The notes under the pieces were generated by a model that worked only from the letters and a program-made list of their open reading frames with translations, made no database searches and was not told where the DNA came from. A program made the translations under genes and the position numbers. This document shows, one piece after another, positions 887 to 15,069 of a stretch of 18,015 nt of DNA; the stretch's first letter is position 1, and each line of letters opens with the position of its first letter. Origin of the DNA: a bacterium (GTDB taxonomy: Bacteria > UBP18 > UBA7526); assembly GCA_030619985.1 (NCBI GenBank), contig JAUXAI010000020.1, positions 1-18,015 on the forward strand. The letters run 5' to 3'.

Positions 887-1227
887 CCGATACTATTGTG
901 GTCATGATTACCTGTTCCTCAAAAAGAGAAGCCGTCAAAATCAAAGAAGCATTATTAGAGAAGAGAAAAGCAGCCTGTATAAATATCATTTCTGGCGTAA
1001 ACTCTTTTTTCTGGTGGAAAGGCAAGATAGATTCCTCTCTTGAGGTTTTACTATTAGCCAAAACAAAGAAGAAAATGCTTAGGGGGATTATCACCCTGGT
1101 CAAGAAGATACATAGCTATGAGGTTCCCGAAATAATTGCCCTGCCCATTGTGGGCGGAAATAAGGATTATTTGAATTGGATAGGAGAGGAGCTTAAAAAG
1201 AGTAAACGCAAAAGCGCAAAAATTTAG
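883..1227 (+). CDS. cutA: CutA-type divalent-cation tolerance protein
   Basis: The 114-residue product matches CutA1: RKAACINIISGVNSFFWWKGKI, then SLEVLLLAKTKK, HSYEVPEIIALPI and a terminal GNKDYLNWI. CutA forms a trimer with a ferredoxin-like fold. Its name comes from copper tolerance in E. coli, but its true biochemical role is unsettled. The start ATG overlaps the upstream stop (ATGA) and is preceded by GGAGAAGGA (871-879). The last ten residues (KKSKRKSAKI) extend past the usual CutA core and are encoded by a short repeat, and the stop codon itself (1225-1227) lies within a repeat copy. The original C-terminus may therefore have been replaced by read-through into the repeat (inference). 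Confidence 0.9.
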   Translation: MTDTIVVMITCSSKREAVKIKEALLEKRKAACINIISGVNSFFWWKGKIDSSLEVLLLAKTKKKMLRGIITLVKKIHSYEVPEIIALPIVGGNKDYLNWIGEELKKSKRKSAKI

Positions 1228-1259
1228 CGTCTTAGCGGATTTTTAGCGTCTTGGCGATT
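1205..1259. repeat. Short direct repeat of the GCGTCTTAGCG word family
   Basis: Two near-identical units, TTTAGCGTCTTAGCGGA (1223-1239) and TTTAGCGTCTTGGCGA (1242-1257), follow an inverted version of the word (AAACGCAAAAGCGCAAAAA, 1203-1221). The block covers the tail and stop of cutA and the whole cutA-nifU gap. It is one of several word-like repeat families in this window. Confidence 0.7.
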
Positions 1260-1278
1260 GCAAAGGAGGTCTAAAGAA

Positions 1279-1503
1279 ATGCGCGATAGGATTGAGAGGG
1301 TTTTAGCAGAAGAGGTAAGGCCCATGCTGGCCATGCATGGGGGAAATGTAGAATTAATCGAAGTGACGGATGAAGGCGTGGTCAAGGTGAGATTAACCGG
1401 GGGTTGTGCCGGTTGTCCAGCGGCTCAGATGACCGTGGTAGGAATAGTTGAGAAAGCCATTAAATCTAAGGTCCCGGAAGTCAAAAGAGTGGAGGCGGTC
1501 TAA
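1279..1503 (+). CDS. NifU C-terminal-domain (NfuA-type) Fe-S scaffold or carrier protein
   Basis: The protein is a stand-alone NifU C-terminal domain: 74 residues from ATG 1279, which has the strong ribosome site AAAGGAGGT (1262-1270) eight bases upstream. An in-frame TTG at 1258 lies upstream of that site and is unlikely to be the start. Hallmarks are the RPMLAMHGGNVELIEV segment and the CAGC motif (C43, C46) that binds or transfers an Fe-S cluster between two monomers. It overlaps the MoaD-like gene by one base (TAATG). With the SufC/SufB-like pair just downstream it could act as the cluster carrier of that system (inference from context). Confidence 0.9.
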   Translation: MRDRIERVLAEEVRPMLAMHGGNVELIEVTDEGVVKVRLTGGCAGCPAAQMTVVGIVEKAIKSKVPEVKRVEAV

Positions 1504-1781
1504 TGGCTCAGATTACGGTTCGTTTCTATACTACTTTAAGGGAGAAGGTAGGGAAGAGCAAGGCCCTCTCAAATGTCCACACCGTGGCCCAGGCATTAGA
1601 AGAACTGAAGAGGCAGTTTGGTTCCCGATTTATCGATCAACTCTATAATCCCAATGGAACAATAAAGAATTATTACATCCTCCTCCTCTCCGGTCGTAGC
1701 ATCGATAGGAAAGAGATCAAGAAGACCGGTTTAAAGGAAGGGGATATTCTTCACATCTTTCCCCCTATCGCTGGGGGCTAA
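1503..1781 (+). CDS. MoaD/ThiS-family ubiquitin-like sulfur carrier protein
   Basis: This 92-residue beta-grasp protein opens with ITVRFYTTLREKVGKSKAL, typical of MoaD, and ends with GDILHIFPPIAGG. The exposed Gly-Gly C-terminus is the residue pair that E1-like enzymes adenylate and then convert to thiocarboxylate. The central part (VAQALEELKRQFG, LLLSGRSIDR) also fits. Carriers of this kind feed sulfur to molybdopterin or tungstopterin, thiamine, or other acceptors, and the sequence alone does not say which. The E1-like gene at the window start and the FdhD homologue downstream make a pterin-cofactor role attractive (inference). The ribosome site is GGAGG at 1491-1495, inside nifU, and the start overlaps the nifU stop. 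Confidence 0.88.
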   Translation: MAQITVRFYTTLREKVGKSKALSNVHTVAQALEELKRQFGSRFIDQLYNPNGTIKNYYILLLSGRSIDRKEIKKTGLKEGDILHIFPPIAGG

Positions 1782-1783
1782 AA

Positions 1784-2557
1784 ATGCTTGAGATAAAGGG
1801 TTTGAGATTGACCTTAAACGGACATCCTATACTGCGGGGAATAAACCTTGAGGTAAAGAAGGGCGAGATTCACACCATCTTAGGAGTGAATGGTGCCGGA
1901 AAGAGTTCTTTGGCCTATTGCCTCATGGGGAGCGAGGGGTATCGGCCACAGGAAGGAAGGATTAGATTCTTAGGAAATGATATTACCAATCTCTCCATCT
2001 CCCAGAGGGCGAGAATGGGATTGACCTTGGCCTGGCAGGAGTCGGCTCGCTTCGAAGGCCTCTTAGCAAGGGAGTATCTCTCCTTGGGAATGAGGAATAG
2101 GGGGGATAGCAAAAGAGTAACTCACGCCTTAGAGTTGGTTGCCTTAAATCCTAAAGAGTTCTTAGGCCGGGCAGTAGATAAGACCCTCTCTGGTGGAGAG
2201 AGGAAGAGGATTGAGCTTGCCAGCATAATTGCCATGAGACCCAAATTAGCTATACTCGATGAGCCAGACTCTGGGATCGACATGCTCTCTCTCGATGATA
2301 TCTTAAATGTCATTAAGAGTATGAAAAAAGAAGGGAGCACCATATTCCTCATTACCCATCGTGAGGAGATGGCTTCTATCTCGGATAGGGTATCCTTAAT
2401 GTGCGATGGCCTCATCGTTAAAACCGGAAAGCCAAAAGAGGAGATGGATTACTTTAAGTTGCATTGTAAGCCATGTCCCACCCATAAGTTTCCGGGCAAA
2501 CTAAAGGAGGGTACCACTGAGAACACAGAGAAGAAACTAACGAGAACACAAAGATAA
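1784..2557 (+). CDS. sufC: SufC-like (SmsC) Fe-S assembly ABC ATPase
   Basis: A 257-residue soluble ABC ATPase of the SufC type. Walker A is GVNGAGKSS (34-42), the Q-loop is TLAWQES (81-87), the signature is LSGGERKR (135-142), Walker B with D-loop is LAILDEPDSGID (155-166) and the switch histidine is in LITHREE. SufC ATPases drive the SufB/SufD-type scaffold that follows. Here there is only one scaffold gene, the arrangement of the minimal SMS-type system known from archaea and anaerobic bacteria. A CKPC pair lies at residues 228-231, beyond the core. The final 17 or so residues (from about 241, KEGTTENTEKKLTRTQR) are encoded by the ACCACTGAGAACACAGAG repeat and look like an acquired tail. 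The ATG is two bases after the moaD-like stop. Confidence 0.92.
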   Translation: MLEIKGLRLTLNGHPILRGINLEVKKGEIHTILGVNGAGKSSLAYCLMGSEGYRPQEGRIRFLGNDITNLSISQRARMGLTLAWQESARFEGLLAREYLSLGMRNRGDSKRVTHALELVALNPKEFLGRAVDKTLSGGERKRIELASIIAMRPKLAILDEPDSGIDMLSLDDILNVIKSMKKEGSTIFLITHREEMASISDRVSLMCDGLIVKTGKPKEEMDYFKLHCKPCPTHKFPGKLKEGTTENTEKKLTRTQR

Positions 2558-2621
2558 TTGCAGAAGCCGTAAAAGAAGTTCTCTGTGAACTCTGTGTTTA
2601 CAATTCTGTGACCTCTGTGGT
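2513..2621. repeat. Word-type inverted repeat (CACAGAG/CTCTGTG family)
   Basis: The left half, ACCACTGAGAACACAGAG (2513-2530), is coding sequence for the SufC tail. The right half, 2581-2621, carries CTCTGTGAACTCTGTGTTT and CTGTGACCTCTGTGG. AACACAGAG (2522-2530) and CTCTGTGTT (2590-2598) are exact inverted copies, and ACCAC (2513-2517) faces GTGGT (2617-2621). The element fills the gap between the sufC-like and sufB-like genes and could fold into a long imperfect hairpin. Confidence 0.7.
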
Positions 2622-2638
2622 TGCAAAGGAATAAGAAG

Positions 2639-3577
2639 ATGAGCGATTATGAGAGCATGGTTAGGGCCTATCGAAAAGCAGGTGGCGACCCCAGAGTCTT
2701 AAGAGACCCTAAGTGTGCTTTTCTGGTAGTAAATAAGAATAAGATCTTAGGAAAGAAGAAGATAGAGGGAATAAAGGTCTTTCGAGCAGAGGAATTACCC
2801 AAGGGGGTAAAGATAACCCTTATTACTCAAAAGGGATATAGAATCGAGAAACCAGTCTATCTCTGTTTCGGCATCCTTCCCAAAAGGGGACTGCAGGAGA
2901 TTTATGTTGACGTAAAGATAGCGGATGGCTCGAGCATTACCCTAATTGCCCACTGCACCTTCCCCAATGCAGTGAAAATCAAACATATCATGAGCGCCGA
3001 GTTCCGAATCGGGAAGGGAGCCTTCTTAGGCTATCACGAGACCCATTACCATGGAGAGAGCGGGGGAGCAGAGGTCATCCCTCAGGGTAAGATATATATT
3101 GATAAGGGAGGAAGGCTCGATACCAGTTTCACCTTAATTAAGGGAAAGGTTGGTAAGTTAAGGATTGACTATGAGGCCCGGGCAAAGGAGAAGGCAGTAG
3201 CAGAACTGGTGGTCAAGGTATATGGAAAGGGGGATGATGACATCCGAATAAAGGAAAAGGCGATATTGGATGGTCCTTATGCCAAGAGCCTCATCAAGGC
3301 TCGAGTAGCGGTTAAGGATAGAGCAAAGACCATGGCCATCGGGATCACAGAGGGGAATGCTCCCTTCTGTAGGGGACATGTGGACTGCATTGAGATCGTT
3401 CAGGGAAAGGCGCAAGCAAAGGCCTTACCCATTGTTCAAGTAATCGATGATAGAGCAAGGGTGACCCATGAGGCAGCCATCGGCAGTATCGATAAGAAGC
3501 AACTCGAGACGGTAATGGCCCGGGGGCTTTCCAAAGAAGAGGCCATCGACGTTGTGGTCAAGGGGATGTTGAGATAG
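2639..3577 (+). CDS. sufB: SufB/SufD-family Fe-S scaffold protein (SmsB-like)
   Basis: A 312-residue SUF-family beta-helix protein. The core is recognisable in VKIADGSSITLIAHCTFPN, the HYHGESGGAEVIP segment, and the C-terminal hallmark RVTHEAAIGSIDKKQLETVM followed by ARGLSKEEAIDVVVKGML. Cysteines at 244 and 250 (FCRGHVDC) and His278 are candidates for cluster ligands (inference from family). It lacks the long N-terminal domain of E. coli SufB and is nearer in size to the scaffold of minimal SufBC/SMS systems, where one protein forms the homodimer partner of the ATPase. I chose ATG 2639 over the in-frame TTG at 2621 because AAAGGA (2625-2630) sits eight bases before it and because 2621 lies in a repeat. 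fdhD follows after five bases. Confidence 0.9.
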   Translation: MSDYESMVRAYRKAGGDPRVLRDPKCAFLVVNKNKILGKKKIEGIKVFRAEELPKGVKITLITQKGYRIEKPVYLCFGILPKRGLQEIYVDVKIADGSSITLIAHCTFPNAVKIKHIMSAEFRIGKGAFLGYHETHYHGESGGAEVIPQGKIYIDKGGRLDTSFTLIKGKVGKLRIDYEARAKEKAVAELVVKVYGKGDDDIRIKEKAILDGPYAKSLIKARVAVKDRAKTMAIGITEGNAPFCRGHVDCIEIVQGKAQAKALPIVQVIDDRARVTHEAAIGSIDKKQLETVMARGLSKEEAIDVVVKGMLR

Positions 3578-3582
3578 ATAGG

Positions 3583-4281
3583 ATGGATCTAACTGAGAAC
3601 CTCAAAATCACCCGTATTTCAGGGAAGAAAAGAGAAGAGATAGAGGATATTGTTGTTAAAGAAATATCCCTTACCATCTTTCTGAATGGGAAGAGAGTGA
3701 AGAGATTATGTTGTAGTCCAGATAAGATTAGAGAACTTGTTTTAGGGTTCTTCTATTCTCAAGGGAGACTAAAGAACCCGAAGGACTTAAAGTCCTTAAG
3801 ATGGGACAGGAAGAAAGGGATTGTGAAAGTCGAGATTCCCCTTTCTAAAGGTCCAAGACTTCTTAAGGTTAGATCGAATCTAAGAATAAAGAAGGAATCC
3901 GTCTTCGGTCTCGCTTTAGCGACAGAGAAAAGATCAAAACTATTCCGGGCCACGGGAGGAGTCCATAGCGCTTGCCTGACAGATAGAAAGAAGATAATTT
4001 TATTCACCGAAGATATTGGAAGGCAGAATGCTCTGGATAAGATTATCGGAGAATCTCTCTTAAAGAATGTTTCCCTTCAGAATAAGGTTATGCTAACCTC
4101 AGGAAGAATAACGGGTGAAACAATAACCAAGATGGCGCGGGCAAGAATTCCTATTATCGTCTCCCCCGGAGCACCCACCGATTTAGCAGTCAATTTGGCT
4201 AAAAAGTTAGGAATAACAATAGTGGGCTTCACCCGGGAAGAGAGGATGAATATCTATTCTCACAAAGGGAGAATAATTTAA
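3583..4281 (+). CDS. fdhD: FdhD-family protein lacking the CxxC loop cysteines
   Basis: The 232-residue product carries the FdhD core: ATGGVHSA (123-130), the TEDIGRQNALDK motif (142-153), LTSGRITGE (171-179) and the C-terminal GFTREERMNIYS. FdhD is the sulfurtransferase that sulfurates the Mo- or W-bis-MGD cofactor before insertion into formate dehydrogenase. In E. coli two cysteines of a flexible loop (C121 and C124) are needed. The corresponding stretch here (about 100-120, NLRIKKESVFGLALATEKRS) contains no cysteine. The only others are C43-C44 and C131. The gene may have a changed mechanism, or act only in cofactor binding (inference). The ribosome site is weak (AGG abuts the ATG), suggesting coupling to the upstream gene five bases away. 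Confidence 0.85.
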   Translation: MDLTENLKITRISGKKREEIEDIVVKEISLTIFLNGKRVKRLCCSPDKIRELVLGFFYSQGRLKNPKDLKSLRWDRKKGIVKVEIPLSKGPRLLKVRSNLRIKKESVFGLALATEKRSKLFRATGGVHSACLTDRKKIILFTEDIGRQNALDKIIGESLLKNVSLQNKVMLTSGRITGETITKMARARIPIIVSPGAPTDLAVNLAKKLGITIVGFTREERMNIYSHKGRII

Positions 4282-4301
4282 AATTTTTGTAAGGAAACGT
4301 A

Positions 4302-4703
4302 ATGGAGGAAGAGGGAAAGGTAATCAAAGTAGAAGGGAATCTTACCCAGGTGGAGGTTGAGAGGAAGAGCGCTTGCCGGGCCTGTGGTCTCTGTAGCCTG
4401 GTAGGAAAGAATACCATGATCGCAGAGGTAGAGAATACTATCGGGGCCAAGGTGGGTGAGAGAGTCAGAATAGAGATTCCCTCTTCTGTAATACTAAAGG
4501 GCGCCCTTCTATTCTATATTCTTCCTTTGGTAGCCTTGATCCTGGGTATGATATTAGGAATAAAGATTACCAATCTCCAGACAGGGGGTCTCATCTTGGG
4601 ATTTTCCTTCTTCATCCTCTCCTTCGTTTTTAGCTGGCTTTACAACAAGAAAACAAGAGACAGAAACATCTATCGTTCCAAGATTACTAAAATAATTAAA
4701 TAA
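4302..4703 (+). CDS. RseC/MucC-family (SoxR-reducing system) membrane protein
   Basis: A 133-residue protein with the RseC/MucC layout: an N-terminal soluble strand region (GKVIKVEGNLTQVEVERKSA), a cysteine cluster CRACGLC (C25, C28, C31), a second strand region (VGERVRIEIPSSVILKGA) and two membrane helices at about 68-90 and 94-113, followed by a lysine/arginine-rich tail. Known members are linked to RpoE regulation, to SoxR reduction together with Rsx/Rnf, and to thiamine synthesis; in anaerobes they are often beside Rnf or cofactor genes. The Cys cluster suggests Fe-S or metal binding. The ribosome site is AAGGA (4291-4295). The permease gene starts immediately after the stop. Confidence 0.82.
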   Translation: MEEEGKVIKVEGNLTQVEVERKSACRACGLCSLVGKNTMIAEVENTIGAKVGERVRIEIPSSVILKGALLFYILPLVALILGMILGIKITNLQTGGLILGFSFFILSFVFSWLYNKKTRDRNIYRSKITKIIK

Positions 4704-5696
4704 ATGATTCAATTCTTAGTCGTTCTCAAAGATTATCTTATTGAACTATTTCCTGTTCTGGCCCTTGGATTTTTCTTAAGCGGCCTCATCCATGAATTCC
4801 TTCCCACCGCTTGGGTGGAGAGGCACCTGGGAGGAAGAGGGATAAGACCCATTATTTATGCTACCATTTCCGGGGCACTTCTTCCTCTATGCTGCTTTGG
4901 TGCTCTACCGGTGGCCATTAGTTTCTTCAAAAAAGGGGCACGTCTCGGACCAGTTTTAGCCTTTCTTGTCGCTACTCCCGCTACCTCAGCCACTGCCTTT
5001 CTGGTCACCTATCGCCTCTTGGGATTAAACTTCACCCTTTTCTTATCTCTTTCTGTTATCTTAATCGGTTTAACCCTTGGCCTAATGGGAAATCTCTTTA
5101 GACTCTCCCCTACTCCTCACCTCCTCCATGAGGAGGATCCGGTCTGTGGGATGTGCGTGGATAGAGAGAAGGGACTGAAGAGAGAGTATGAAGGAAGAAC
5201 CTACTACTTTTGTTCTCCTCATTGCCGGGAAATCTTTGAAAGGGAGCCTCAGAAGTATGTGGGAGAGAGTAGATATAGAAAGGGGGTCAGAGAAAGGATA
5301 AAGTCTGTCTTTAAATTTGGCTTCTGGGACTTATTAAAAGAGATTGGCCCGGAGTTAGCCCTGGGTTTAGTCCTAGCGGCTCTTATCATGGTTGTCACTC
5401 CTGTAGGAAGGTTAATCGGAAATTACCTGAGCGGAGGATTTGGCTATCTCTTTGCCCTTCCCTTTGGGTTGGCCATGTACATCTGTTCTACAGCGAGCGT
5501 TCCCTTAGTTCATGCCTTCTTAACCCAAGGGATGAATATCGGAGCAGGCATGGTCCTTTTAATTGTGGGACCGGTCACCAGTTTTGGTACTATCTTGGTT
5601 GTTAAGAAAGAGTTTGGCACAAGAATCCTATTCCTCTATCTGCTCGTTATCTGTGCCTTGTCCTTAATCCTAGGATACGGTTTCTCTAAAATGTAA
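4704..5696 (+). CDS. DUF318-family permease with internal YHS metal-binding domain (putative metal or metalloid efflux)
   Basis: A 330-residue integral membrane protein in two halves. Residues 1-130 hold the first helical bundle with ALLPLCCFGALPVAISFFKK and FLVATPATSATAFLVTY, typical of PF03773 permeases such as the SO_0444-type Cu/Zn exporters and ArsP. Residues 145-187 form a YHS domain, DPVCGMC (C148, C151) and YYFCSPHC (C170, C174). Residues 213-330 form the second bundle with CSTASVPLVHAF and IVGPVTSFGTILVVK. The cytoplasmic loop of such permeases is usually plain, so the YHS insertion suggests that a bound metal loads or gates the transporter (inference). The ArsR/ACR3 unit next door makes metal or metalloid export plausible, but the substrate cannot be read from sequence. 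Confidence 0.8.
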   Translation: MIQFLVVLKDYLIELFPVLALGFFLSGLIHEFLPTAWVERHLGGRGIRPIIYATISGALLPLCCFGALPVAISFFKKGARLGPVLAFLVATPATSATAFLVTYRLLGLNFTLFLSLSVILIGLTLGLMGNLFRLSPTPHLLHEEDPVCGMCVDREKGLKREYEGRTYYFCSPHCREIFEREPQKYVGESRYRKGVRERIKSVFKFGFWDLLKEIGPELALGLVLAALIMVVTPVGRLIGNYLSGGFGYLFALPFGLAMYICSTASVPLVHAFLTQGMNIGAGMVLLIVGPVTSFGTILVVKKEFGTRILFLYLLVICALSLILGYGFSKM

Positions 5697-5750
5697 GGAT
5701 ACGCTACCACTTAGTTGGATAAACATCATTATTTGTTTCCGAGGAAAATC

Positions 5751-5787
5751 TTCTGCTGTCCGAGATTACTTGGGGAGCAGAATTTTT
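5751..5787 (+). terminator. Candidate rho-independent terminator after the permease gene
   Basis: TTCTGCT (5751-5757) and AGCAGAA (5776-5782) form a 7-bp stem with an 18-base loop, followed by TTTTT (5783-5787). It would end the ten-gene run and lies directly before the arsR promoter. The large loop makes it less certain. Confidence 0.45.
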
Positions 5788-5788
5788 C

Positions 5789-5817
5789 TTGACATTTATA
5801 TGAATATATGTTAATAT
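5789..5817 (+). promoter_or_regulatory. sigma70-type promoter of the arsR-ACR3 unit
   Basis: A perfect -35 box TTGACA (5789-5794) is separated by exactly 17 bases from TAATAT (5812-5817, one mismatch to TATAAT). An in-frame ATG at 5816 overlaps the -10 box, which argues for translation starting further down, at 5849. It is the clearest promoter in the window. Confidence 0.85.
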
Positions 5818-5824
5818 GTTCATA
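5799..5824. promoter_or_regulatory. Possible ArsR operator
   Basis: TATGAA (5799-5804) and TTCATA (5819-5824) are exact inverted copies flanking the promoter spacer and the -10 box, within a strongly AT-rich alternating stretch. ArsR-family repressors bind such imperfect palindromes and repress by blocking RNA polymerase. The position fits autorepression, but the six-base arms are short and could arise by chance in AT-rich DNA. Confidence 0.45.
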
Positions 5825-5848
5825 AGATTGATTGAATGGAGGAAAATT

Positions 5849-6187
5849 ATGGAGAAGATGAGAAAATTATTCAGCGCTTTAGCGAATGAAACTAGATTGC
5901 GTATTTATTTACTTCTATTGAAGGGAGAACTGTGCGTCTGCGAATTGGTAGATATACTGAATATGGAACAATCAAGGATTTCGCATAGTTTAAGGATTCT
6001 GAAAGAAGTGGGCCTTCTCGATGACCGACGGGAAGGTAAATGGATTATCTATTCGGTAAATCCGAAGATAAGCAAGAATAAGATTATTCAAGGGTTAAGA
6101 GATGAATTAAAATTGTCAACTCAGGATTTAAGGAATCTTGATAGATGCAAAAAAGAGAAGATAAGAGAAAAATGCAAGAAGAGATAA
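5849..6187 (+). CDS. arsR: ArsR/SmtB-family metalloregulator
   Basis: The 112-residue product is a winged-helix repressor: FSALANETRLRIYLLLLKGE, the metal-site motif ELCVCELVDIL in the alpha3 region, the recognition helix QSRISHSLRILKEVGLL and the wing DDRREGKWIIYSV. The ELCVCEL cysteine pair is the As(III)/Sb(III) site of classical ArsR proteins, so inducer-driven derepression is expected. A Cys-containing tail (CKKEKIREKCKK) may add ligands. I chose ATG 5849 because GGAGGA (5838-5843) lies five bases ahead, while ATG 5816 lies in the -10 box. It is autoregulated if the operator reading is right, and ACR3 follows within 110 bases on the same transcript. Confidence 0.92.
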   Translation: MEKMRKLFSALANETRLRIYLLLLKGELCVCELVDILNMEQSRISHSLRILKEVGLLDDRREGKWIIYSVNPKISKNKIIQGLRDELKLSTQDLRNLDRCKKEKIREKCKKR

Positions 6188-6188
6188 T

Positions 6189-6269
6189 ATGTTATTAAAA
6201 GCGGGTTTAGTTGCTTTAAGAGAATATATTGTTATCTTAATAGCGGTTGCAGGGAAGGATTATAATTAA
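6189..6269 (+). pseudogene. Small ORF, possible 5' remnant of a permease gene
   Basis: A 26-codon ORF (MLLKAGLVALREYIVILIAV, then AGKDYN) begins two bases after the arsR stop and ends before ACR3. Its opening resembles the N-terminal start of ArsP/DUF318 permeases, which commonly follow arsR in anaerobes, and breaks off after the first hydrophobic helix. I read it as a possible deletion remnant. A real small membrane peptide cannot be excluded, and no clear ribosome site was seen. Confidence 0.3.
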
Positions 6270-6296
6270 TCTGGGACGTTTGAAGAAGAAATAATT

Positions 6297-7469
6297 ATGG
6301 CTAAAGAAGAAAGAAAACTTAATGTCTTTGAAAAATATCTTACTTTCTGGGTTTTGTTATGCATTGGTGCCGGCATTATTATTGGTAAAGTTGCACCGAA
6401 TATGGCGAAATTTCTGGATGAACTAGCAATTTATGTTAAGGAAGCACCGGTAGTTTCCATTCCCATTGCCGTCTGTTTATTTTTTATGATGTATCCCATT
6501 ATGATTAAGATAGATTTTGCCGAGGTACTTAAAGCCGGGAAATCTCCCAAGCCAGTAGGATTAACCTTATTTGCCAACTGGGCTGTTAAGCCATTTACTA
6601 TGTATGCTATCTCTCTTTTCTTTCTCGGGTTTCTTTTCAAGAAATTTATTGGAACCAACGCAGTTGATTATGTCAAACTACCACCCGGTGCTACCGGTTG
6701 GATAGTGGGAGCGATTCATGGTGCGGGCACTGTTGTTGTGCATAACGGATTGAAAATGCTTGAGATTCCACTGTGGAGGAGTTATCTTGCCGGATGTATT
6801 CTTCTGGGGATTGCCCCCTGCACGGCAATGGTTCTCGTCTGGGGCTTTCTGGCAAAAGGTAATGACGGACATACCCTGGTTATGGTAGCAATAAATTCTC
6901 TAACAATGCTCCTTCTCTATGGGCCTCTTGGTGGATTTTTACTTGGTATAGGCAGATTACCTGTTCCCTGGCAGGCATTATTACTTTCCATCAGTATCTA
7001 TGTTGCCCTACCCCTTGTTGCCGGATATTTTTCAAGAAAATGGATAATAAAGGTAAAAGGTGAAGGGTGGTTCAGGGAGAAATTTTTACATCTACTCACA
7101 CCAGTATCAATTATTGCACTTTTATTTACTCTTGTTTTACTCTTTTCATTTAAAGGTAACATAATTTTAACCAAACCCCTCACTATCCTATGGATAGCTA
7201 TCCCGCTTTTCATTCAGACGAATCTTATATTCTGGCTCACTTATGGACTGGCAAGAATTCTTAAACTCCAGTATGAAGATGCCGCACCCTCTGCCATGAT
7301 CGGGGCCAGCAATCATTTTGAAGTAGCCATTGCTACCGCCACGATGTTGTTTGGATTATCTTCGGGAGCAGCCCTGGCAACAGTTGTGGGGGTGCTCATT
7401 GAAGTTCCGGTGATGTTAATGCTGGTGAAGATATGTCTAAGAACAAAGTATTTTTTCGTTAAAATTTAG
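6297..7469 (+). CDS. acr3: ACR3-family arsenite efflux permease
   Basis: A 390-residue membrane protein with about ten helices and ACR3 signatures: [31 protein letters not shown], the essential cysteine in [15 protein letters not shown] (C175), [16 protein letters not shown], and [20 protein letters not shown] containing the conserved Glu. ACR3 exports As(III) using the proton gradient. The loop between helix 4 and helix 5 (about 115-160, with a [20 protein letters not shown] stretch) is longer than the short linker I recall from better-known ACR3 proteins. No arsC or arsA is visible, so the unit is a minimal arsR-acr3 pair. No strong ribosome site was seen. The gene looks less purine-biased than its neighbours, which may point to separate acquisition (weak inference). 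Confidence 0.93.
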
Positions 7470-7565
7470 GTGATTATAAAATATCTAACATCAGTGTTTA
7501 ATATCTAGTACTAAATCCAATCTAATAGCACACTATCACTCTTCGCCGCTAGAGAATGAATTAGG

Positions 7566-7594
7566 GCAGGAGCTTTAAAAAGCTCCTGCTTTTT
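7566..7594 (+). terminator. Rho-independent terminator after ACR3
   Basis: GCAGGAGCTTT (7566-7576) and AAAGCTCCTGC (7579-7589) are perfect inverted copies, realistically a 9-bp GC-rich stem with a small A-rich loop, followed by TTTTT (7590-7594) and further T runs. It closes the arsenic unit. Confidence 0.88.
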
Positions 7595-7621
7595 GTGTTT
7601 TTGAGGATATTGTGCTAAAAT
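7593..7621 (+). promoter_or_regulatory. Weak candidate promoter upstream of mfd
   Basis: TGCTAAAAT (7613-7621) is an extended -10 element (TGNTAAAAT). The hexamer 17 bases upstream, TTGTGT (7593-7598), matches three of six consensus bases. mfd needs a promoter after the ACR3 terminator, but this one is tentative. Confidence 0.25.
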
Positions 7622-7628
7622 TAAAGGT

Positions 7629-7725: not shown

Positions 7726-7756
7726 AACTTCAACAGCAAAATTAATGAGGATATAA

Positions 7757-10700
7757 ATGGATTTTGGTAAGTCAAAAGGATTAAAGAGAGTCTTAAACGA
7801 TTTAAAAAAGGGCGAGAAGGAAGTCAGAGTCTCTGGACTCTGGGGGAGTGCTAAGGCCCTTCTTCTTTCTTCTCTATCTAAGAAGTTATCTCACCCTATC
7901 TTAATTATTACTTCAGATGAAGAGAAGAGAATCGAGGTGGAAGAAGACCTTGGTATCTTTAGCACAGAAGTCCCTATTCTCTCCTTTCCTTCACAGGAGA
8001 TGAATAAAAGACTATTTTCTCTTTCCTCTCTTCTTTCTTCCACCGAGTTTCTTCTGGTAACGGATCGGAAAGTGCTTGAAGAGAAGATAATCTCACCGAA
8101 TGATTTCTTAAAATTTTCCTCTAAGATAAGGGTAAATGAAGACCTAAAACGGGAAAGATTTATTAAGGGATTGGTCTCTTCGGGATATGAGGGAACCCCT
8201 ATGATTGAAAGGAGGGGAGAATTCAGCATCCGGGGAGGGATCATAGATATCTGGTCATCCCAGGATGAGAATCCTCTAAGAATAGAGTTGCTCGGAGAAA
8301 GAATAGAGTCCCTGAGAAGGTTCGATCCTCTTACTCAGAGGTCAATTAAGAAGATAAAGGAAGCCCAGATTATTCCTTTTACCTCTCAGGGAAAGGCCAC
8401 CCTCTTCGACTATTTACCAAAGAATACCCTAATCGCCACAGAATCTCCGAACCATGCCTCATCGGCAGGTCGCCGAAGAGGCGACTCCGAACTCAAAACT
8501 CCGAACTATCAATTGCTTCGCTTCCTTCCTTTCTTCCAGGAAGGAGCGATTGATTTCGCTACCCAGCCTATGGAGAACTTCCATCGCAAGATCGATCTCT
8601 TAAGGGAAAGAATAAGAGAATGGCAGAGGGAAAATTATAGAATATTCATCTTTGCTGATAACCAGGGTCAAAAAGAAAGATACCTTGATCTCCTCAAAGA
8701 TTTGAAGGAATTGGAGATAAGGGTGGGCTCCCTCTCAGCTGGTTTCTTAGCCCCAGAGTTAAAATTAGCTATTCTTACAGATGAGGAGATATTCGGAAGA
8801 TATGGCCAGAGGAAGTATTTAGAGAAGTTTAGATATAAGGAAGGGGTTCCTATCTCTACCTTCTTTGAATTAGAAGAAGGAGACTATGTCGTCCATCAGG
8901 ATTATGGCATCGGAATCTATGAGGGTCTGAAGAGGTTGAAGGTGGGGGGAGGAGAGATGGACTTCTCATCTCTGAGATATGCCGGCGGGGATAGGCTCTA
9001 TATTCCTATAGATAAGAGTCACTTCGTCAGTAAATATATTGGAACAGAGGGTTATCGACCAAAGGTCTATAGATTGGGAGGGACTTCCTGGGAGAGGGTG
9101 AGAGAGAAGGTAAGGGAGAGGGTGAGAGAATTGGCAGAGGAACTTCTGAACCTCTATGCCTCAAGGAAGGCCTTTAAAGGTTACTCCTTTCCTAAAGATG
9201 ACCACTGGCAGATGGAGTTTGACTCTGCCTTCATCTATTCCGAGACCCCGGATCAGGCAAGGGCCATAGAAGAGGTGAAGAGGAATATGGAGGATCCCCA
9301 CCCCATGGATAGGCTAATCTGCGGAGATGTGGGATATGGAAAGACGGAGATCGCCATGCGGTCGGCCTTCAAGGCGGCCATAGATGGGAAACAGGCGGCA
9401 TTATTAACTCCCACTACTATCTTAGCAGAGCAGCACTATCGTACTTTCAGAGAGAGGTTCGCCGACTGGCCAGTGAGAATAGAGATGCTCTCCCGATTCC
9501 GGACCAAGACCGAGCAGGGGAAGATCATAAAGGATTTGAAGAAGGGACTGGTCGATATCATCATCGGAACCCACCGGCTCATCCAGAAGGACGTGGACTT
9601 CAAGGACCTGGGTTTGGTAATTATTTATGAGGAGCAAAGGTTTGGGGTGAGGCACAAAGAAAGGTTGAAAGCTTTGAGGAAGCTGGTTGATGTCTTGACC
9701 TTAAGTGCCACTCCCATTCCCCGGACACTACATCTTTCACTATCCGGGATCTGGGACATGAGTATTGTCAACACTCCACCAGAAGGAAGGCTCCCCATCG
9801 CTACCTATGTTACAGAGTATGATGAGAAGATAGTAAAGAGGGCCATTGAATTTGAACTCTTCCGAAAGGGACAGGTCTATTTCGTCCATAATAGAATAGA
9901 AAATATCCCTGGCTTAGCCAAGAGTTTAAAAAAGGTCTTTCCCAAGGCAAGGATTGCCATAGCCCATGGAAGGATGGCGGAAAGAGAATTAGAAGAGGTG
10001 ATGCTAAGGTTTGTGAGAAGAGAGATCGATATTTTAGTCTCTACGGTCATCGTGGAGTCTGGACTCGATATCCCGAATGTCAACACTCTCATCGTTAAGG
10101 ATGCCCAGGACTTCGGGCTTTCTACGCTCTATCAGCTGAGGGGTAGAGTGGGAAGGGGACGCAATAAGGCCTACGCCTACTTCTTCTATCCCAGGGGATA
10201 TCCCCTCTCTTCAGTTCAGACGAAGAGGCTGGCCACCATCTCCCACTTTACGGAATTGGGTTCTGGATTTAAGATCGCCATGAAGGATTTAGAAATCAGG
10301 GGAGCGGGAAACATCCTAGGTCCCGAGCAATCGGGTTATATCATGGAGGTGGGCTTTGACTTATACTGTAAGTTACTGGAAGAGGCGGTGGAGAGACTAA
10401 AGGGGAAGGAGCCTACTCCTTCCCTTCCTTCTCCCAAGATTACTCTGGATATTAAAGCCTATCTCCCCCAAGAATATATTCCAGATCAGACGCAAAGAAT
10501 TGTTTTTTATAAAAGGATGGCTTCTTCTCTAAAGGAAGAAGAGATTAAGGATTTAGAAGAGGAATTAAAGGATAGGTTCGGCCCTCTACCAGAAGAGGCA
10601 AAGAATCTATTAGGGATTATGGACTTGAAGATATTAGCCCAGAGGCTGGGAATTGTAGAGATCATTAAAGAAGGAGAAAGAGCAAGTTTGAAGTGGGAAA

Positions 10701-10828: not shown

Positions 10829-10854
10829 TATGTTAAACTATAGACGCCGATAGC

Positions 10855-10884
10855 CGCAGATTACAACGCAGATTAACGCAGATA
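10855..10884. repeat. CGCAGATTA word repeats in the mfd-ppiC gap
   Basis: CGCAGATTA occurs at 10855-10863 and 10867-10875, with a third degenerate copy CGCAGATA at 10877-10884. They fill most of the 77-base gap after mfd, just before the ribosome site of the next gene. No terminator is obvious after mfd. Confidence 0.65.
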
Positions 10885-10905
10885 CTGACAGAAAGGAGAG
10901 AATTA

Positions 10906-11811
10906 ATGACGAAAAAACTCTTTCTTATATGCTTAGTCTCTTTTCTTTTGATCTTTGGCTGCAGAAAAAGACCAGAGGAGAAGGGAATAGTTGCCCGGGT
11001 CAATAGGGAACCCATTACCTTAGAGGAGTTCAATAAGGCTTTCTTACCCTATTCTCCGAGTAGAGAGGAGATTCCCGCCCTAAAGAGAAGGGTTCTCGAT
11101 CAATTGATTGAGAAGAGGCTCAAGCTTCAGGAAGCGCGAAGGTTGGGATTGAGGGTTACTGATGAGGAGTTAAACCAGAGAATAAGGGAAACCATGGGTT
11201 CCTATCCCAAGAGTGAGTTCATTACTTTTTTAGCTAAGGAGAAGACGACCTTTGAGGAATGGAAGGAAAAAATAAGAGAGGATATCCTGATTGAGAAACT
11301 CATTACCTCCCAGGTCTATCTTCCCATAAAGGTGAGCGAGAAAGAAATTACTGCTTATTACCGGGAGCATCAAGACCAATTCGGGGAACCAAAGAAGTTC
11401 AGGATCCGCCAGATCTTGGCGGAGAGCCAAACGGAGGCAGAGGAGATTCTCAAGGCCTTGGGAAAGGGAGAAAGATTTGAGGAACTGGCCCGGGAGAAAT
11501 CTTTGAGTCCGGATAAAGAGCGGGGAGGGGATATGGGCTATTTCTCTAAGGAAGAGATGCTCGCTGAATGGGAGGAGGCGGTGGGTAAGCTTTCTCCGGG
11601 TGAGGTGAGCTATCCTGTAGAATCTCCCTATGGCTGGCACATCTTCAAGCTGGAAGAGATAAAATCCCCCCGGATACTGAGCTTGAAAGAAGCCAGAAAG
11701 GAGATTAAAGAGAAACTCCTCCTTGAGAGAAGAGAGAGAGCATTAAAGGAGTGGCTCTTGGGTCTCCGTGTCCGGGCAGAAATTGAGATCAATGAGGAAT
11801 TGCTTAGATAA
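10906..11811 (+). CDS. SurA/PrsA-like peptidyl-prolyl isomerase lipoprotein (PpiC family)
   Basis: A 301-residue exported foldase. The N-terminus MTKKLFLICLVSFLLIFGC has a lipoprotein signal with C19 as the probable lipidated residue. A SurA-type N-terminal chaperone region follows (VNREPITLEEFNKAF, VLDQLIEKRLKLQEARRLG). A parvulin domain lies at about 164-251, including KKFRIRQILAES, SLSPDKERGGDMGYF and YGWHIFKLEEI. Such proteins help outer-membrane or secreted proteins fold in the envelope. The start has a strong ribosome site, AAAGGAG (10892-10898), seven bases ahead. The next gene is a shorter paralogue, so the two probably arose by tandem duplication and divergence. PrsA versus SurA cannot be told from sequence alone. 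Confidence 0.9.
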   Translation: MTKKLFLICLVSFLLIFGCRKRPEEKGIVARVNREPITLEEFNKAFLPYSPSREEIPALKRRVLDQLIEKRLKLQEARRLGLRVTDEELNQRIRETMGSYPKSEFITFLAKEKTTFEEWKEKIREDILIEKLITSQVYLPIKVSEKEITAYYREHQDQFGEPKKFRIRQILAESQTEAEEILKALGKGERFEELAREKSLSPDKERGGDMGYFSKEEMLAEWEEAVGKLSPGEVSYPVESPYGWHIFKLEEIKSPRILSLKEARKEIKEKLLLERRERALKEWLLGLRVRAEIEINEELLR

Positions 11812-11828
11812 TAAAGGACATTGAAATA

Positions 11829-11896
11829 ATAAGCACCAAATTCCAAATAATAAATCACAAACAAATTCAAAATCACAATTACCAAATGTCCAAAAC
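11829..11896. repeat. CAAATTCCAAATAATAAA-type word repeats between the two PpiC genes
   Basis: The 130-base gap between the two foldase genes is filled by loose repeats of the ACCAAATTCCAAATAATAAA kind (CACAAACAAATTCAAAATCACAATTACCAAATGTCC). It is AT-rich and non-coding, a second word family distinct from the GC-containing ones. I see no clear promoter in it. Confidence 0.55.
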
Positions 11897-11952
11897 AAAG
11901 ACTGTTTTAGTCATTGTGTATTGTAATTTATATGTAAACGGTGAATAGGGCA

Positions 11953-12825
11953 ATGAACAAAAAATCTTTTCTATTTTTACTATTCTTGATGCTGGTTTTC
12001 GTCAGTTATTCTCAGGCAAAGATCGTGGAGCGTGTCGTTGCCCGGATAAACGATGAGATCATTACCCTCTCTGAACTGGAGGAGGCCTACCAGCAATTAA
12101 AGAGCGCTCTCCCTGAAGGGGAAAGAATGCCTTCTAAGGGGAAGCTGCTGAAGAGGATGATTGAGAACAAACTCCTTCTCCAGGAAGCAAAGAGAGAGGG
12201 GATTAAGGTATCAAAAGGAGAGATCCAGGAGAATATTGAGAGAGTGAAAGCAGGGTTTCTTTCTGAGAAGGCCTTTGAGATGGCCCTGGAACGAGAAGGA
12301 ATAAAGATAGAGGATCTGGAAAAAAGATATGAAGAAGAACTCATGATTAAAAAACTCATTGATAGAGAGGTGAAGCCCGAGGTTGAGGTAACAAAGAAAG
12401 AGATTAGAGACTATTATGAGAAGAACAAAGGAAGGTTTAGAGAAGAAGAGAAGGTGAAAATAAGACACGCTCTTTTTAAGGATTATTCTCAGGCTCGCAA
12501 GATACTGGAAGAGTTAAAGTCTGGGGCACCTTTTGAAGAGATAGTAAAGGAAGGATATCTGGGCTCTTTTAAAAGGGGCCAGCTTGATAGGAGAATTGAA
12601 GAGATAGCCTCTAGTCTGAAAAAGGGAGAGATAAGTTCGATAATTAAGACAGAGGCCGGCTATCATATCATCAAACTGGAGAAGAAAGAGAAAGCGAGAT
12701 TAAAGAAACTCTCTGAAGTAAGAGAGGAAATCAGGAATATTCTCTCCTCACAGAGGATGGAGAGGAAGCTTAAGGAATATCTGGAAGAACTAAAAGCAAA
12801 ACAGGAGATCGAAATCCGACTCTGA
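11953..12825 (+). CDS. SurA-like periplasmic foldase with shortened parvulin domain
   Basis: A 290-residue exported protein. A Sec signal peptide (MNKKSFLFLLFLMLVFVSYS, predicted cut after SQA, residue 22) is followed by KIVERVVARINDEIITLSEL, typical of SurA, and LLKRMIENKLLLQEAKREG. The parvulin region (about 165-250: EEKVKIRHALFKDYSQA to AGYHIIKLEK) lacks the stretch that in the upstream paralogue reads KSLSPDKERGGD, about nine residues. Catalytic PPIase activity may be lost while the chaperone role remains (inference). I chose ATG 11953; a GTG at 11941 in frame would add four residues. Neither has a good ribosome site. Confidence 0.85.
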   Translation: MNKKSFLFLLFLMLVFVSYSQAKIVERVVARINDEIITLSELEEAYQQLKSALPEGERMPSKGKLLKRMIENKLLLQEAKREGIKVSKGEIQENIERVKAGFLSEKAFEMALEREGIKIEDLEKRYEEELMIKKLIDREVKPEVEVTKKEIRDYYEKNKGRFREEEKVKIRHALFKDYSQARKILEELKSGAPFEEIVKEGYLGSFKRGQLDRRIEEIASSLKKGEISSIIKTEAGYHIIKLEKKEKARLKKLSEVREEIRNILSSQRMERKLKEYLEELKAKQEIEIRL

Positions 12826-12840
12826 TTGTAAAAAATAGCT

Positions 12841-12871
12841 AAGGAGAGCGGATGGAAGCTCTCTTTTTTTT
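12841..12871 (+). terminator. Rho-independent terminator after the second foldase gene
   Basis: AAGGAGAGC (12841-12849) pairs with GCTCTCTTT (12858-12866) in a 9-bp stem with one G-T pair and an 8-base loop, followed by a run of T ending at 12871. The ribosome site of pdxA (AAGGAG, 12877-12882) lies just beyond it. Confidence 0.8.
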
Positions 12872-12888
12872 CAGTTAAGGAGCTTTAG

Positions 12889-13896
12889 ATGATGGTTAAG
12901 CCAGTGATTGGGATTACTATGGGGGATGCAGCAGGGATTGGGCCAGAGATTATTATAAAGGCTTTAAGCGAAAAAGAGATTTATAAAATCTCCTCCCCAT
13001 TAGTCATCGGAGATGGGAAGGTGATAAGTTCGGAGTTAATAGTTCGGAGTTCGGAGTTAGAAATTAATTCTATTAGCAAAATAAGGGAGGCGAAATTTAA
13101 GTTTGGGATCATTAATCTGATAGATTTAAAAAACATCAAGATGGAAAGGCTTAAGATAGGAAAGGTTAATAAGATGGCTGCCAAAGCAGCAGTAGACTAT
13201 ATAAAGAAGGCGGTCTCTTTGGCAAAAGAGGGTGAGATCGACGCTATTACTACTGCTCCAGTAAATAAAAAAGGATTACAAAGGGCGGAATTTAGGTTTC
13301 TTGGTCATACAGAACTCTTAGCCCATCTTACCAAGACAAAGAATTATGCCATGATGCTTGTGGGTGGTCCCTTGAGGGTGGTCTTGGTAACCACTCATCT
13401 ACCTCTAAGTAAGGTAAGTTCCTCTTTGAGAAAAGAGAAGATTTATCAGACCATAGAATTGGCCTGGAATAATATGAAATATTTTGGGATAAAAAAACCG
13501 AGGGTTGGAGTGGCGGGTCTGAATCCTCATGCGGGAGAGGAAGGGTTGTTCGGCAAAGAGGAGAAAAAGTTTATTATCCCGGCAGTAAAAGAGGCAAAGA
13601 AGAAAGGAATAAAGGCAGAAGGACCTATTCCTCCAGATACTATCTTCCATCGTGCTCTAAAAGGCGAGTTTGACTGTGTGGTATGTATGTATCACGATCA
13701 AGGTCTAATCCCTTTGAAGATGCTTGCCTTTGATAGGGGGGTGAATGTAACTTTAGGCCTTCCCATTATCAGGACCTCTGTTGACCACGGAACAGCCTAC
13801 GAGATTGCAGGAAAGGGGGTGGCCAACCCCCAGAGCCTAATAGAAGCCATAAAATTAGCCGCAAAGCTAGCCAAAACAAGGAGCGGGAGGCAGTGA
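12889..13896 (+). CDS. pdxA: 4-hydroxythreonine-4-phosphate dehydrogenase PdxA
   Basis: A 335-residue member of the PdxA family. It opens with KPVIGITMGDAAGIGPEII. The metal-binding histidines fall at H170 (VTTHLPL), H214 (LNPHAGEEG) and H269 (MYHDQGLIPLK), matching H166, H211 and H266 of E. coli. The C-terminal motif is LGLPIIRTSVDHGTAYEIAG. PdxA oxidises 4-phosphohydroxy-L-threonine in the DXP-independent pyridoxal phosphate route. A PdxA2-type threonate role cannot be excluded without a tree. ATG at 12889 and ATG at 12892 both fit the ribosome site AAGGAG. Residues 47-58 (SSELIVRSSELE) are encoded by three copies of an AGTTCGGAGTT word, in a region that is normally variable. No other pdx gene is visible. 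Confidence 0.93.
   Translation: MMVKPVIGITMGDAAGIGPEIIIKALSEKEIYKISSPLVIGDGKVISSELIVRSSELEINSISKIREAKFKFGIINLIDLKNIKMERLKIGKVNKMAAKAAVDYIKKAVSLAKEGEIDAITTAPVNKKGLQRAEFRFLGHTELLAHLTKTKNYAMMLVGGPLRVVLVTTHLPLSKVSSSLRKEKIYQTIELAWNNMKYFGIKKPRVGVAGLNPHAGEEGLFGKEEKKFIIPAVKEAKKKGIKAEGPIPPDTIFHRALKGEFDCVVCMYHDQGLIPLKMLAFDRGVNVTLGLPIIRTSVDHGTAYEIAGKGVANPQSLIEAIKLAAKLAKTRSGRQ
13027..13058. repeat. In-frame AGTTCGGAGTT repeats inside pdxA
   Basis: Three copies of the 11-mer AGTTCGGAGTT occur at 13027-13037, 13041-13051 and 13048-13058, the last two overlapping by four bases. The word is the reverse complement of the AACTCCGAACT word in mfd, and a 12-base match (13039-13050 against 8498-8509) is exact. 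Confidence 0.75.
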
Positions 13897-14060
13897 ATCG
13901 GGAAAACGGGGAATCGGAGAAAGTGAGAAAGTGGGCAGGTGAGAGAATTTCCAATTGCCAATTCCTAATTTCCAATGATCTAAATTAGACATTGAACATT
14001 TAAGAATTGGACATTTTATTAGAAATTGGATATTAGATATTAGAAATTTAGCATATACGG
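13897..14060. repeat. Repeat-filled pdxA-rsmA gap (GAATCGG and CAATT/AATTGG words)
   Basis: The 174-base gap begins with GAATCGGGAAAACGGGGAATCGG, a GC-containing word pair that starts right at the pdxA stop. It continues with CCAATTGCCAATTCC and TTCCAATG words and then inverted versions (AAGAATTGG, AGAAATTGG), ending in TTAGATATTAG. It is non-coding as far as I can see. I saw no ribosome site for rsmA. Confidence 0.55.
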
Positions 14061-14070
14061 GTACCTTATT

Positions 14071-14985
14071 ATGTCTAATGAGATGGTTTTACCTAAAGTA
14101 ACGAAGGAATTTTTGAAAGAACATGGAATAAGGATAAAGAAGAGACTGGGGCAGAATTTTCTCATTGATGAAGGAATACTAAATAGGATAGTAGAAGTAG
14201 CCGATCTTGGTAAAGATGATATCGTCATTGAGATTGGACCAGGAATGGGAACCCTGACAAAGAAATTGGCCCAAGAAGTCAAGAAAGTTCTGGCTATAGA
14301 AATTGATGAGAATCTGGTTAAACTTCTAAAGGAGACTTTAGCTCCCTTTAAAAATATAGAAATCATCCATGCTGATATTCTCAAGATAAATCTCAAGAAA
14401 TTGGTTACCCGGTTATCCGGTTATCCGGTTACCCGGTTTAAAAAACAAGCAGACTGGCAGACTGGCAGACTGGCAGACAAGGTTAAAGTAGTTGCTAACC
14501 TTCCCTACTACATCACCACTCCCATCATTATTCATCTTCTGAAAGCAAGGGAAATCCTTTCTAAGATTGTGATTATGGTTCAGAAGGAGGTGGGGAGAAG
14601 GATGGTGGCCAAACCACGCACTAAGGATTATGGGGCTTTGTCTCTATTGGTTCAGTATTATACCAAGCCCCAGATTACGATCAAAGTGCCCAGGAGCGCT
14701 TTCCTTCCCGAGCCAGAGGTCGATTCTTGTGTAGTGAATTTAGAGGTCCTGGAGAAGCCCGCGGTCGAGGTCAAGGATGAGGAGTTATTCTTTAAGGTGG
14801 TGAGAGCCGCCTTTGAACAAAGGAGAAAAGCACTAAAGAATGCTCTAAGTCGGACAAGGGATTTAAGATTAAGCAAGAAGAAGGTTTTGGAAATCTTAGA
14901 GAAAGCGGATATCAAGCCTTTGAGAAGGGGGGAGACGCTGAGCCTGGAAGAGTTTGCAAGGTTGAGCAATTTGCTTACAAAGTAA
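14071..14985 (+). CDS. rsmA: 16S rRNA dimethyladenosine transferase RsmA (KsgA)
   Basis: A 304-residue SAM-dependent methyltransferase with the full RsmA series: RLGQNFLIDEGILNRIV, IEIGPGMGTLTKKLA (53-67), EIDENLVKLL, HADILK, VANLPYYITTPIIIHLL, the MVQKEVGRRMVAKP segment, FLPEPEVDSCVVNL, and RAAFEQRRKALKNAL. It dimethylates two adjacent adenosines in the helix 45 hairpin of 16S rRNA late in small-subunit assembly. The protein is about 30 residues longer than is usual for the family. The extra length matches residues 111-136, a repeat-encoded insert between the ADILK and NLPYY motifs. The stop codon lies inside another repeat. No ribosome site was seen for ATG 14071. Confidence 0.95.
   Translation: MSNEMVLPKVTKEFLKEHGIRIKKRLGQNFLIDEGILNRIVEVADLGKDDIVIEIGPGMGTLTKKLAQEVKKVLAIEIDENLVKLLKETLAPFKNIEIIHADILKINLKKLVTRLSGYPVTRFKKQADWQTGRLADKVKVVANLPYYITTPIIIHLLKAREILSKIVIMVQKEVGRRMVAKPRTKDYGALSLLVQYYTKPQITIKVPRSAFLPEPEVDSCVVNLEVLEKPAVEVKDEELFFKVVRAAFEQRRKALKNALSRTRDLRLSKKKVLEILEKADIKPLRRGETLSLEEFARLSNLLTK
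14403..14478. repeat. In-frame 8-bp tandem repeats inside rsmA
   Basis: Four consecutive 8-bp units, GGTTACCC, GGTTATCC, GGTTATCC and GGTTACCC (14403-14434), are followed by an A-rich linker and then 3.5 copies of the 8-bp unit AGACTGGC (14451-14478). The period of 8 is not a multiple of 3, yet the whole keeps the gene in frame. It codes for LVTRLSGYPVTRF and QADWQTGRLAD. Confidence 0.9.
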
Positions 14986-15048
14986 CCAGTAACCAGTTTA
15001 CAGTTTACAGTAAAAAAGCTGGTTACTGTTCGCTGGTTACTGTAAACT
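14981..15048. repeat. GTAACCAG/GTTTACAG repeat and inverted repeat at the rsmA stop
   Basis: The tract starts inside the rsmA stop (TAA 14983-14985) with two AGTAACCAG copies and AGTTTACAG copies. AGTTTACAGTAA (15002-15013) and TTACTGTAAACT (15037-15048) are a perfect 12-bp inverted pair with a 23-base loop, and CAGTAACCAG (14987-14996) matches CTGGTTACTG (15019-15028). It could form a strong hairpin between rsmA and the kinase gene, but with no T run it is not a typical terminator. Confidence 0.75.
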
Positions 15049-15069
15049 ATCCGAATGAAATGAGAAGAG

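Follow-up and report, generated by a model that had tools for sequence, protein, structure and literature searches.

The 23S ribosomal RNA (rRNA) intervening sequence (IVS) of Coxiella, Leptospira and other bacteria is a selfish element with complementary ends and an open reading frame (ORF) for the S23p protein, a homopentamer, and the element is excised by RNase III (PMC4990558). Intergenic tandem arrays of a 7-base word, TAACTGA, have been described near start codons in the distant lineages Beggiatoaceae, Cyanobacteria and Bacteroidetes; their mechanism is unknown, and a host-functional role was proposed for them in Beggiatoaceae (PMC4679880). Rickettsia palindromic elements are palindromes of ~100–150 bp that are inserted in frame in protein genes (reviewed in PMC10969869). 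In the present study, we analysed a stretch of 18,015 nt from a bacterium of the UBP18 lineage (JAUXAI010000020.1, hereafter the window), in which short repeated words are found in gaps and inside genes. The window is the entire contig C89 of the source genome G000, a 1.25 Mb draft with 83.65% completeness, and it was compared with five further genomes of the same family that have orthologous regions (G001–G005) and with an unrelated genome (G006); G000–G003 are drafts of 75–93% completeness, which limits the absences scored in them. Our data suggest that the words of the window are quite probably the arms of very small mobile elements, which are mostly gene-less and of which full copies carry one ORF. 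The nearest relative of these word-arm elements is the IVS.

The words listed by the first-pass annotation of the window were recovered at or very near the positions it gave. There are eight exact tandem duplications of period 7–12 in the window, whereas 60 dinucleotide shuffles gave 1.85 on average and never more than 6; exact runs reach 22 in the window but at most 13 in shuffles. In 593 kb of G000, arrays of period 6–9 (z > 3) were found in 107 of 253 intergenic gaps of 60–700 bp but in only 1 of 253 shuffled gaps, thus word arrays are a genome-wide feature and are not confined to the window. The period is 7 or 8 in 91 of these 107 gaps; the words, taken initially to be of 7–12 bases, are indeed short, but their units are mostly of 7 or 8 bases. 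Moreover, repetition in tandem or as inverted pairs is real, but the majority of arrays, and most families of the window, are inverted pairs of arrays (imperfect hairpins) rather than plain tandems. Their position both at gene borders and within genes was confirmed, the intragenic ones being in frame: mfd, pdxA and rsmA keep open frames despite the arrays and are still recognised. Folding is very strong at the GTAACCAG/GTTTACAG site (14979–15050, fold z −7.0) and moderate for most other families of the window (z −1.7 to −2.4), and the CGCAGATTA array alone folds no better than chance. A search of the window gave no Rfam match above the gathering score, and PADLOC gave no match to any defence system.

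In the full element, a word array, one ORF and the inverted word array together make up a unit of ~450 bp. The first type of ORF encodes a four-helix-bundle protein of the 23S rRNA intervening-sequence protein family (PF05635, 23S_rRNA_IVP; TIGR02436), and a query of this protein matched the solved chain 2gsc with E 1e-10. PF05635 copies number 10 in G000, 10 in G002 and 8 in the unrelated G006, with none in 14 control genomes, and each copy stands solitary, enclosed by inverted arrays of a word of its own. When 505 ORFs were ranked, without bias, for how similar their flanks are in inverted orientation, five four-helix-bundle ORFs came near the top, and ORFs for GxxExxY proteins were also leading. 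Inverted arms, counted at z > 4 against shuffles, were found around 13 of 23 four-helix-bundle ORFs in the family and its neighbours, around 18 of 28 in nine genomes of other lineages, and around 10 of 19 in genomes chosen regardless of repeats (one duplicate locus omitted). The total of 41/70 compares with 24 of 506 control ORFs of G000 (Fisher p 4e-27). The z > 4 rule is conservative, and by eye arrays are present on one or both sides of most remaining copies, too. Two longer PF05635 proteins among those scored (L279 and L280) have no arms. Several element ORFs are interrupted by in-frame stops, which fits decay of the gene with the arms left.

The second type of ORF has the same arrangement of arms and encodes a GxxExxY protein (PF13366/TIGR04256) with a PD-(D/E)XK core. 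Nine aligned GxxExxY proteins retain E29, D68, E78-x-K80 and Q92, in line with a PD-(D/E)XK nuclease, and inverted arms were found around 22 of 34 ORFs, with a Fisher p of 3e-18 against the same 24/506 control ORFs. GxxExxY matches were also seen, outside the flank scoring, within open frames of ~770–900 codons (L308, L310 and L314, in genomes G044 and G049), which are possibly fusions or read-through frames.

Complete units are dispersed to unlinked sites. At two sites of G000 (L127 and L129), the encoded proteins are 98% identical and DNA identity is 91% across 450 bp; homology runs from 22 bp before the ATG to 56 bp after the stop codon, these limits coincide, exactly or nearly, with the outer boundaries of the word arrays, and the flanks beyond are unrelated. 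The same unit occupies a third site in G001 (L113), and the distant genome HSP1.bin6 (G049) has a copy (L260) with 76% identity across 455 bp, the ends of which are almost the same. Dispersal of this kind was also seen for a GxxExxY unit in G002 (L172/L173). At L154:14488, GGTTACGG arms surround a four-helix-bundle ORF in G000, and G002 has a gene-less GGTTACGG hairpin. Across G001–G005, the insert of an orthologous site is missing in some species and replaced by another word in others. Comparison of half the genome between G000 and G002 gave ~60 insertion differences, mostly word hairpins, among which several are nested in the loop of another. Junction overlaps of 4–14 bp were found at 43% of junctions compared with 10% in the null, some calls being limited by the alignment.

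The elements also reach far beyond the family. An exact 24-base core of one family of hairpins (CAAAT) was found, according to the genome labels, in Omnitrophota, Desulfobacterales, Deltaproteobacteria (including the complete chromosome CP070735), Wolfebacteria, Liptonbacteria and close relatives of G000. In 16 aligned copies, a near-invariant centre is flanked on either side by heptamers of variable number and spelling, and 22 paired columns are nearly invariant. All nine tested genomes with CAAAT hairpins beyond the family encode PF05635, in 2–12 copies. An exact scan of viral contigs did not find the core, thus there is no sign of phage carriage of the CAAAT family. One architecture recurs in many phyla, is polymorphic for insertion between species and is dispersed as complete units; the early supposition that the families may be products of one process is partly supported, as they share this architecture genome-wide and in other phyla too.

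Four-helix-bundle proteins of different lineages with at least 58% identity share their word in 10 of 10 pairs, which come from two or three clades (L113/L127/L129 with L260; L242/L243/L258/L285; and, weaker, L257/L259). Below ~50% identity the words are unrelated, and over all pairs word similarity does not rise with protein identity (Spearman about 0). A functional tie of the four-helix-bundle protein to its word is plausible from these alignments, because unconstrained flanks at 58–60% identity should be unalignable.

Most copies, among them all those in the window, have no ORF and are made up of two arms around a short loop; no strand is assigned to the window copies. When their words were compared with the flank pairs of 67 four-helix-bundle and 36 GxxExxY ORFs, using shuffled queries as the null, each matched word paired with the arms of a single cargo class. 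The gene-less hairpin GCGTCTTAGCG/GCGTCTTGGCG at 1192–1264 lies in the gap that separates the NifU/NfuA-like gene from an upstream ORF, and its word recurs around GxxExxY ORFs of other phyla (L306 with exact GCGTCTTGGCG; L297 and L298), which tentatively places the hairpin with the GxxExxY elements. The hairpin CACAGAG ... CTCTGTG at 2513–2621, between the SufC-like and SufD/SufB-like genes, matches GxxExxY arms only (L311, CACAGAGAACACTGAG, and L157), at the 95% line of the null. Both sites had been noted as repeats (1205–1259 and 2513–2621), which they are; to this we add that they are insertions relative to sister species, the 1192–1264 site being empty in G002 and G003, with duplicated (A)GAGGAG/AAAGGAG flanks, and the 2506–2628 site empty in G002 and nearly empty in G003, with duplicated AAAGGAG/AAAGGAA flanks. 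The duplicated AAAGGAG at these two sites may reflect selection keeping the ribosome-binding site.

Further along the window, the mfd gene has an in-frame array of TCCGAACT words at 8440–8515, and across species this spot carries TCCGAAC, CACCCAT or ACTTATC. The CGCAGATTA array at 10838–10895, between mfd and a peptidyl-prolyl isomerase gene, is a one-sided remnant that matches GxxExxY arms only (L162, score 19.5, and L170, 19.0; shuffled-query maximum 15). The CAAATTC/CAATTGTG hairpin at 11829–11930, between two peptidyl-prolyl isomerase (SurA/PrsA-like) genes, is a member of the cross-phylum CAAAT family, and G005 has a longer ortholog in this position (L045); its word CAAATT matches four-helix-bundle arms only, with a relative in the same genome (L132, G000:C47; score 28.5, null maximum 18). 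An in-frame array of AGTTCGG words lies in pdxA at 13020–13062, where G004 has the same word, G001, G003 and G005 have other words, and G002 has no array. After pdxA follows the GAGAAAGTG array (13895–13945), in a gap that is nearly empty in G001; its match to four-helix-bundle arms is borderline (L284, L110, L270 and L116 at about the null maximum). Before rsmA lies the hairpin AATTTCC/GGAAATT ... TTAGAAATTGG (13946–14050), which has dispersed copies in G000–G005, with 82–95% identity elsewhere in genus and family. The in-frame hairpin in rsmA (14400–14482), with GGTTAYCCGG words and then CAGACTGG words, matches four-helix-bundle arms of one clade only (L242, 16.5; L243, 17.5; L285, 15.5; null maximum 15).

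The hairpin GTAACCAG/GTTTACAG ... CTGGTTACTG at 14979–15064 lies between rsmA and the glycerate kinase gene. The 14979–15072 site is empty in G002; G001 and G004 have a different word hairpin there, and in G005 GTTGGATA arrays and their inverse enclose a four-helix-bundle ORF (G005:C14:16079-16393). The word GTAACCAG itself matches four-helix-bundle arms only (L123 of G002, score 19.0, null maximum 15). In this hairpin (15037–15064), as in L090 near 16460, L103 (G002 allele) and others, the element end beside the downstream start codon carries CCGAGCGGAGCGAG, sometimes decayed (e.g. CCGAATGAAATGAG). These ends recall the GCGNAGC DNA mini-hairpin, which is very stable.

How such a unit would work can be proposed from its parts. 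The four-helix-bundle protein may bind the repeated words of both arms; if it forms a homopentamer ring like S23p, a row of equal words would suit its binding and could offer each subunit a site. The nuclease core of the GxxExxY protein suggests DNA cutting. Gene-less copies would arise mainly via loss of the ORF and were possibly moved in trans. Insertions would be expected to persist where a hairpin is harmless, i.e. in gaps of co-transcribed genes and beside ribosome-binding sites, with the loops of older elements and in-frame positions in permissive protein loops as other tolerated spots. As a broader and clearly tentative proposal, the elements might constitute a new class of mobile element whose ends are inverted arrays of an interchangeable 7–8-base word; a four-helix-bundle protein acting as an oligomer would read these arrays, or a GxxExxY nuclease would cut them. 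Word and protein would co-diverge, new words would arise, and the class might account for heptamer repeats as well as for two orphan small genes that are among the commonest across bacterial phyla.

The first-pass annotation had supposed a process in which short repeats grow at gene borders and at times inside genes. If nothing moved, replication slippage or template switching in place could produce short tandem words of variable copy number and different words at one site across species, both of which we see, and the ORFs would then be coincidental or sit in insertion-tolerant places. This account does not hold well, however, since the words are inverted pairs, identical words are found together with their ORF at sites that are unlinked and have nothing in common in their flanks, the architecture and even the words recur in distant phyla, and the association with two protein families is strong; it was already disfavoured by the dispersed units of 90% identity, and the empty or differently occupied orthologous sites contradict it as well, so that we regard it as very unlikely. 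Very unlikely in our opinion, too, is that the hairpins are host elements for regulation or mRNA processing (RNase III stem-loops or intercistronic terminators) kept for their function. Many copies do lie between co-directional genes and beside ribosome-binding sites, like most TAACTGA repeats (PMC4679880), and the 22 nearly invariant paired columns of the CAAAT alignment could be read in the same way; but sister species have empty orthologous sites or another word there, many copies are within coding sequence, and compensatory changes are absent. A secondary effect of the hairpins on mRNA is possible.

Ordinary miniature inverted-repeat transposable elements (MITEs), moved by a conventional transposase encoded elsewhere in the genome and with the four-helix-bundle and GxxExxY genes as passengers, are also an unlikely source. 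The gene-less copies resemble MITEs in being short, non-autonomous and polymorphic for presence, with inverted ends and some short junction duplications, and a separate MITE with CCCGCACC ends and 4–6 bp duplications does exist here. Fixed terminal inverted repeats in all copies and a uniform target duplication are lacking, however; the arms and overlaps vary from copy to copy, which leaves no single terminal sequence for one transposase to recognise. No transposase gene had been noticed in the window and none was found near the arrays: the Y1 transposase (PF01797) has no match in G000–G003 and reverse transcriptase (PF00078) none in the six genomes searched, all incomplete drafts in which other transposase families were not searched. 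A partner gene, for which the first-pass annotation had proposed a test, was found in the form of a four-helix-bundle ORF or a GxxExxY ORF with its PD-(D/E)XK site.

Several observations weigh against the elements being mobile units of the kind we prefer. Movement is deduced from dispersed copies and no movement event was observed; there is no uniform target duplication, as overlap lengths vary. No catalytic site is recognised in the four-helix-bundle protein, therefore a second activity may be needed besides it. None of the 22 paired columns of the 16 CAAAT hairpins has a compensatory change, so that selection on the folded form is not proven, and a conserved RNA fold is not claimed for them. 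The cross-phylum pairing of protein and word has a thin basis of two independent clades, and GxxExxY proteins of 64–70% identity can carry different words, so that word recognition by them is not strict and their tie looser. In the window, the scored match of GCGTCTTAGCG (1192–1264) to cargo arms is below threshold, and among the scored flank pairs there is no cargo-bearing relative of the mfd array (TCCGAAC), the pdxA array or the 13946–14050 hairpin.

Compared with the IVS, the word-arm elements have in common the complementary ends, one PF05635/TIGR02436 ORF, a length of about 430–450 bp and the existence of gene-less forms. The S23p/23S_rRNA_IVP assignment holds for the four-helix-bundle copies, which score above the cut-offs of PF05635 and TIGR02436, but not for GxxExxY or gene-less copies, and ends able to form a stem were found at z > 4 in the 41 of 70 flanks given above. 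Whereas the IVS is located in rRNA, the present elements are genome-wide, between and inside protein genes, with word-array arms, a second unrelated ORF type and a distribution over many phyla; a search for intervening sequences found no 23S gene in G000–G003 or G006. The four-helix-bundle protein is also a distant relative of Avd, the accessory protein of diversity-generating retroelements (profile NF033474, E 3e-4, below the profile cut-off), but no reverse transcriptase accompanies it in the six genomes.

The nearest published word arrays are the TAACTGA repeats, which likewise are intergenic 7-base tandems across distant lineages. They are direct repeats of one word with no inverted arms or linked ORF reported, whereas many words, inverted arms and cargo ORFs are found here. 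The short tandemly repeated repetitive (STRR) heptanucleotides of cyanobacteria are also dispersed tandem heptamers in intergenic DNA, for which we know of no inverted arms or cargo, in contrast to the present elements; the words of the window differ from those of both TAACTGA and STRR repeats and are mostly inverted pairs. Repetitive extragenic palindromes (REP/REPIN) are dispersed and have a gene-bearing relative with the REP-associated tyrosine (RAYT, Y1) transposase. That combination of dispersed palindromes and a gene-bearing relative is seen here as well, but G000–G003 have no Y1 gene, there is no conserved REP head, and the arms are arrays. Insertion in frame within coding sequence, which here affects mfd, pdxA and rsmA at the same spots in sister species, is a trait of Rickettsia palindromic elements as well, but by their description these have no word arrays, no known gene-bearing form and a restricted lineage. 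Restriction of the words to the window or identity with a known REP or MITE family had been named as grounds for discarding a common process; the words occur well beyond the window, and no match to a described family of either kind was found. We found no description linking word arrays with these proteins in the open-access literature; novelty is provisional because subscription papers and preprints were outside this search.

Many proteins of uncultured bacteria are annotated as TIGR02436 or GxxExxY, for which there is no consensus on function, and both appear here as the single gene of one sort of element. The elements provide a source for unexplained intergenic heptamer repeats and a shared explanation with widespread orphan genes, and the rRNA intervening sequences with S23p may represent a single niche within a far broader family. 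Since no recognised transposase is present, how a unit of ~450 bp with variable ends moves becomes a testable question.

The genes recognised in the window are NfuA/NifU-like, SufC-like and SufD/SufB-like genes, acr3, mfd, peptidyl-prolyl isomerase genes, pdxA, rsmA and a glycerate kinase gene. At 5816–7469, between the SUF-type genes and mfd, a small ORF that by eye is ArsR-like is followed by the ACR3 arsenite efflux gene. Elsewhere, a small palindrome, GGATGCCAGCGAAGCGCATCCGGCATC, was seen in the loop of CGCAGAT-type hairpins (L079:1088-1200 and L149:9424, the latter a G002 allele), and apparently it is another dispersed element preferring hairpin loops. A MITE family distinct from the word-arm elements has CCCGCACCTTTT...AAAGGTGCGGG ends, a length of ~80–140 bp and 4–6 bp target duplications, and is present in G000 (L075:11841-11979, L078:9505-9587 and L148:6151-6282) and in G002 (L176, G002:C35); the sites of the G000 copies are without insert in G002, and one copy region has a GIY-YIG ORF between such ends. 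The GIY-YIG ORF was rejected as a third cargo of the word-arm elements, as its arms are weak as a group (4/18) and most of these ORFs lie by tRNA gene fragments or in the different MITE. In G006, small GIY-YIG ORFs (L180, L184 and L187) lie between a tRNA gene and its partial copy, an arrangement suggestive of an element that inserts itself into tRNA genes and reconstitutes them.

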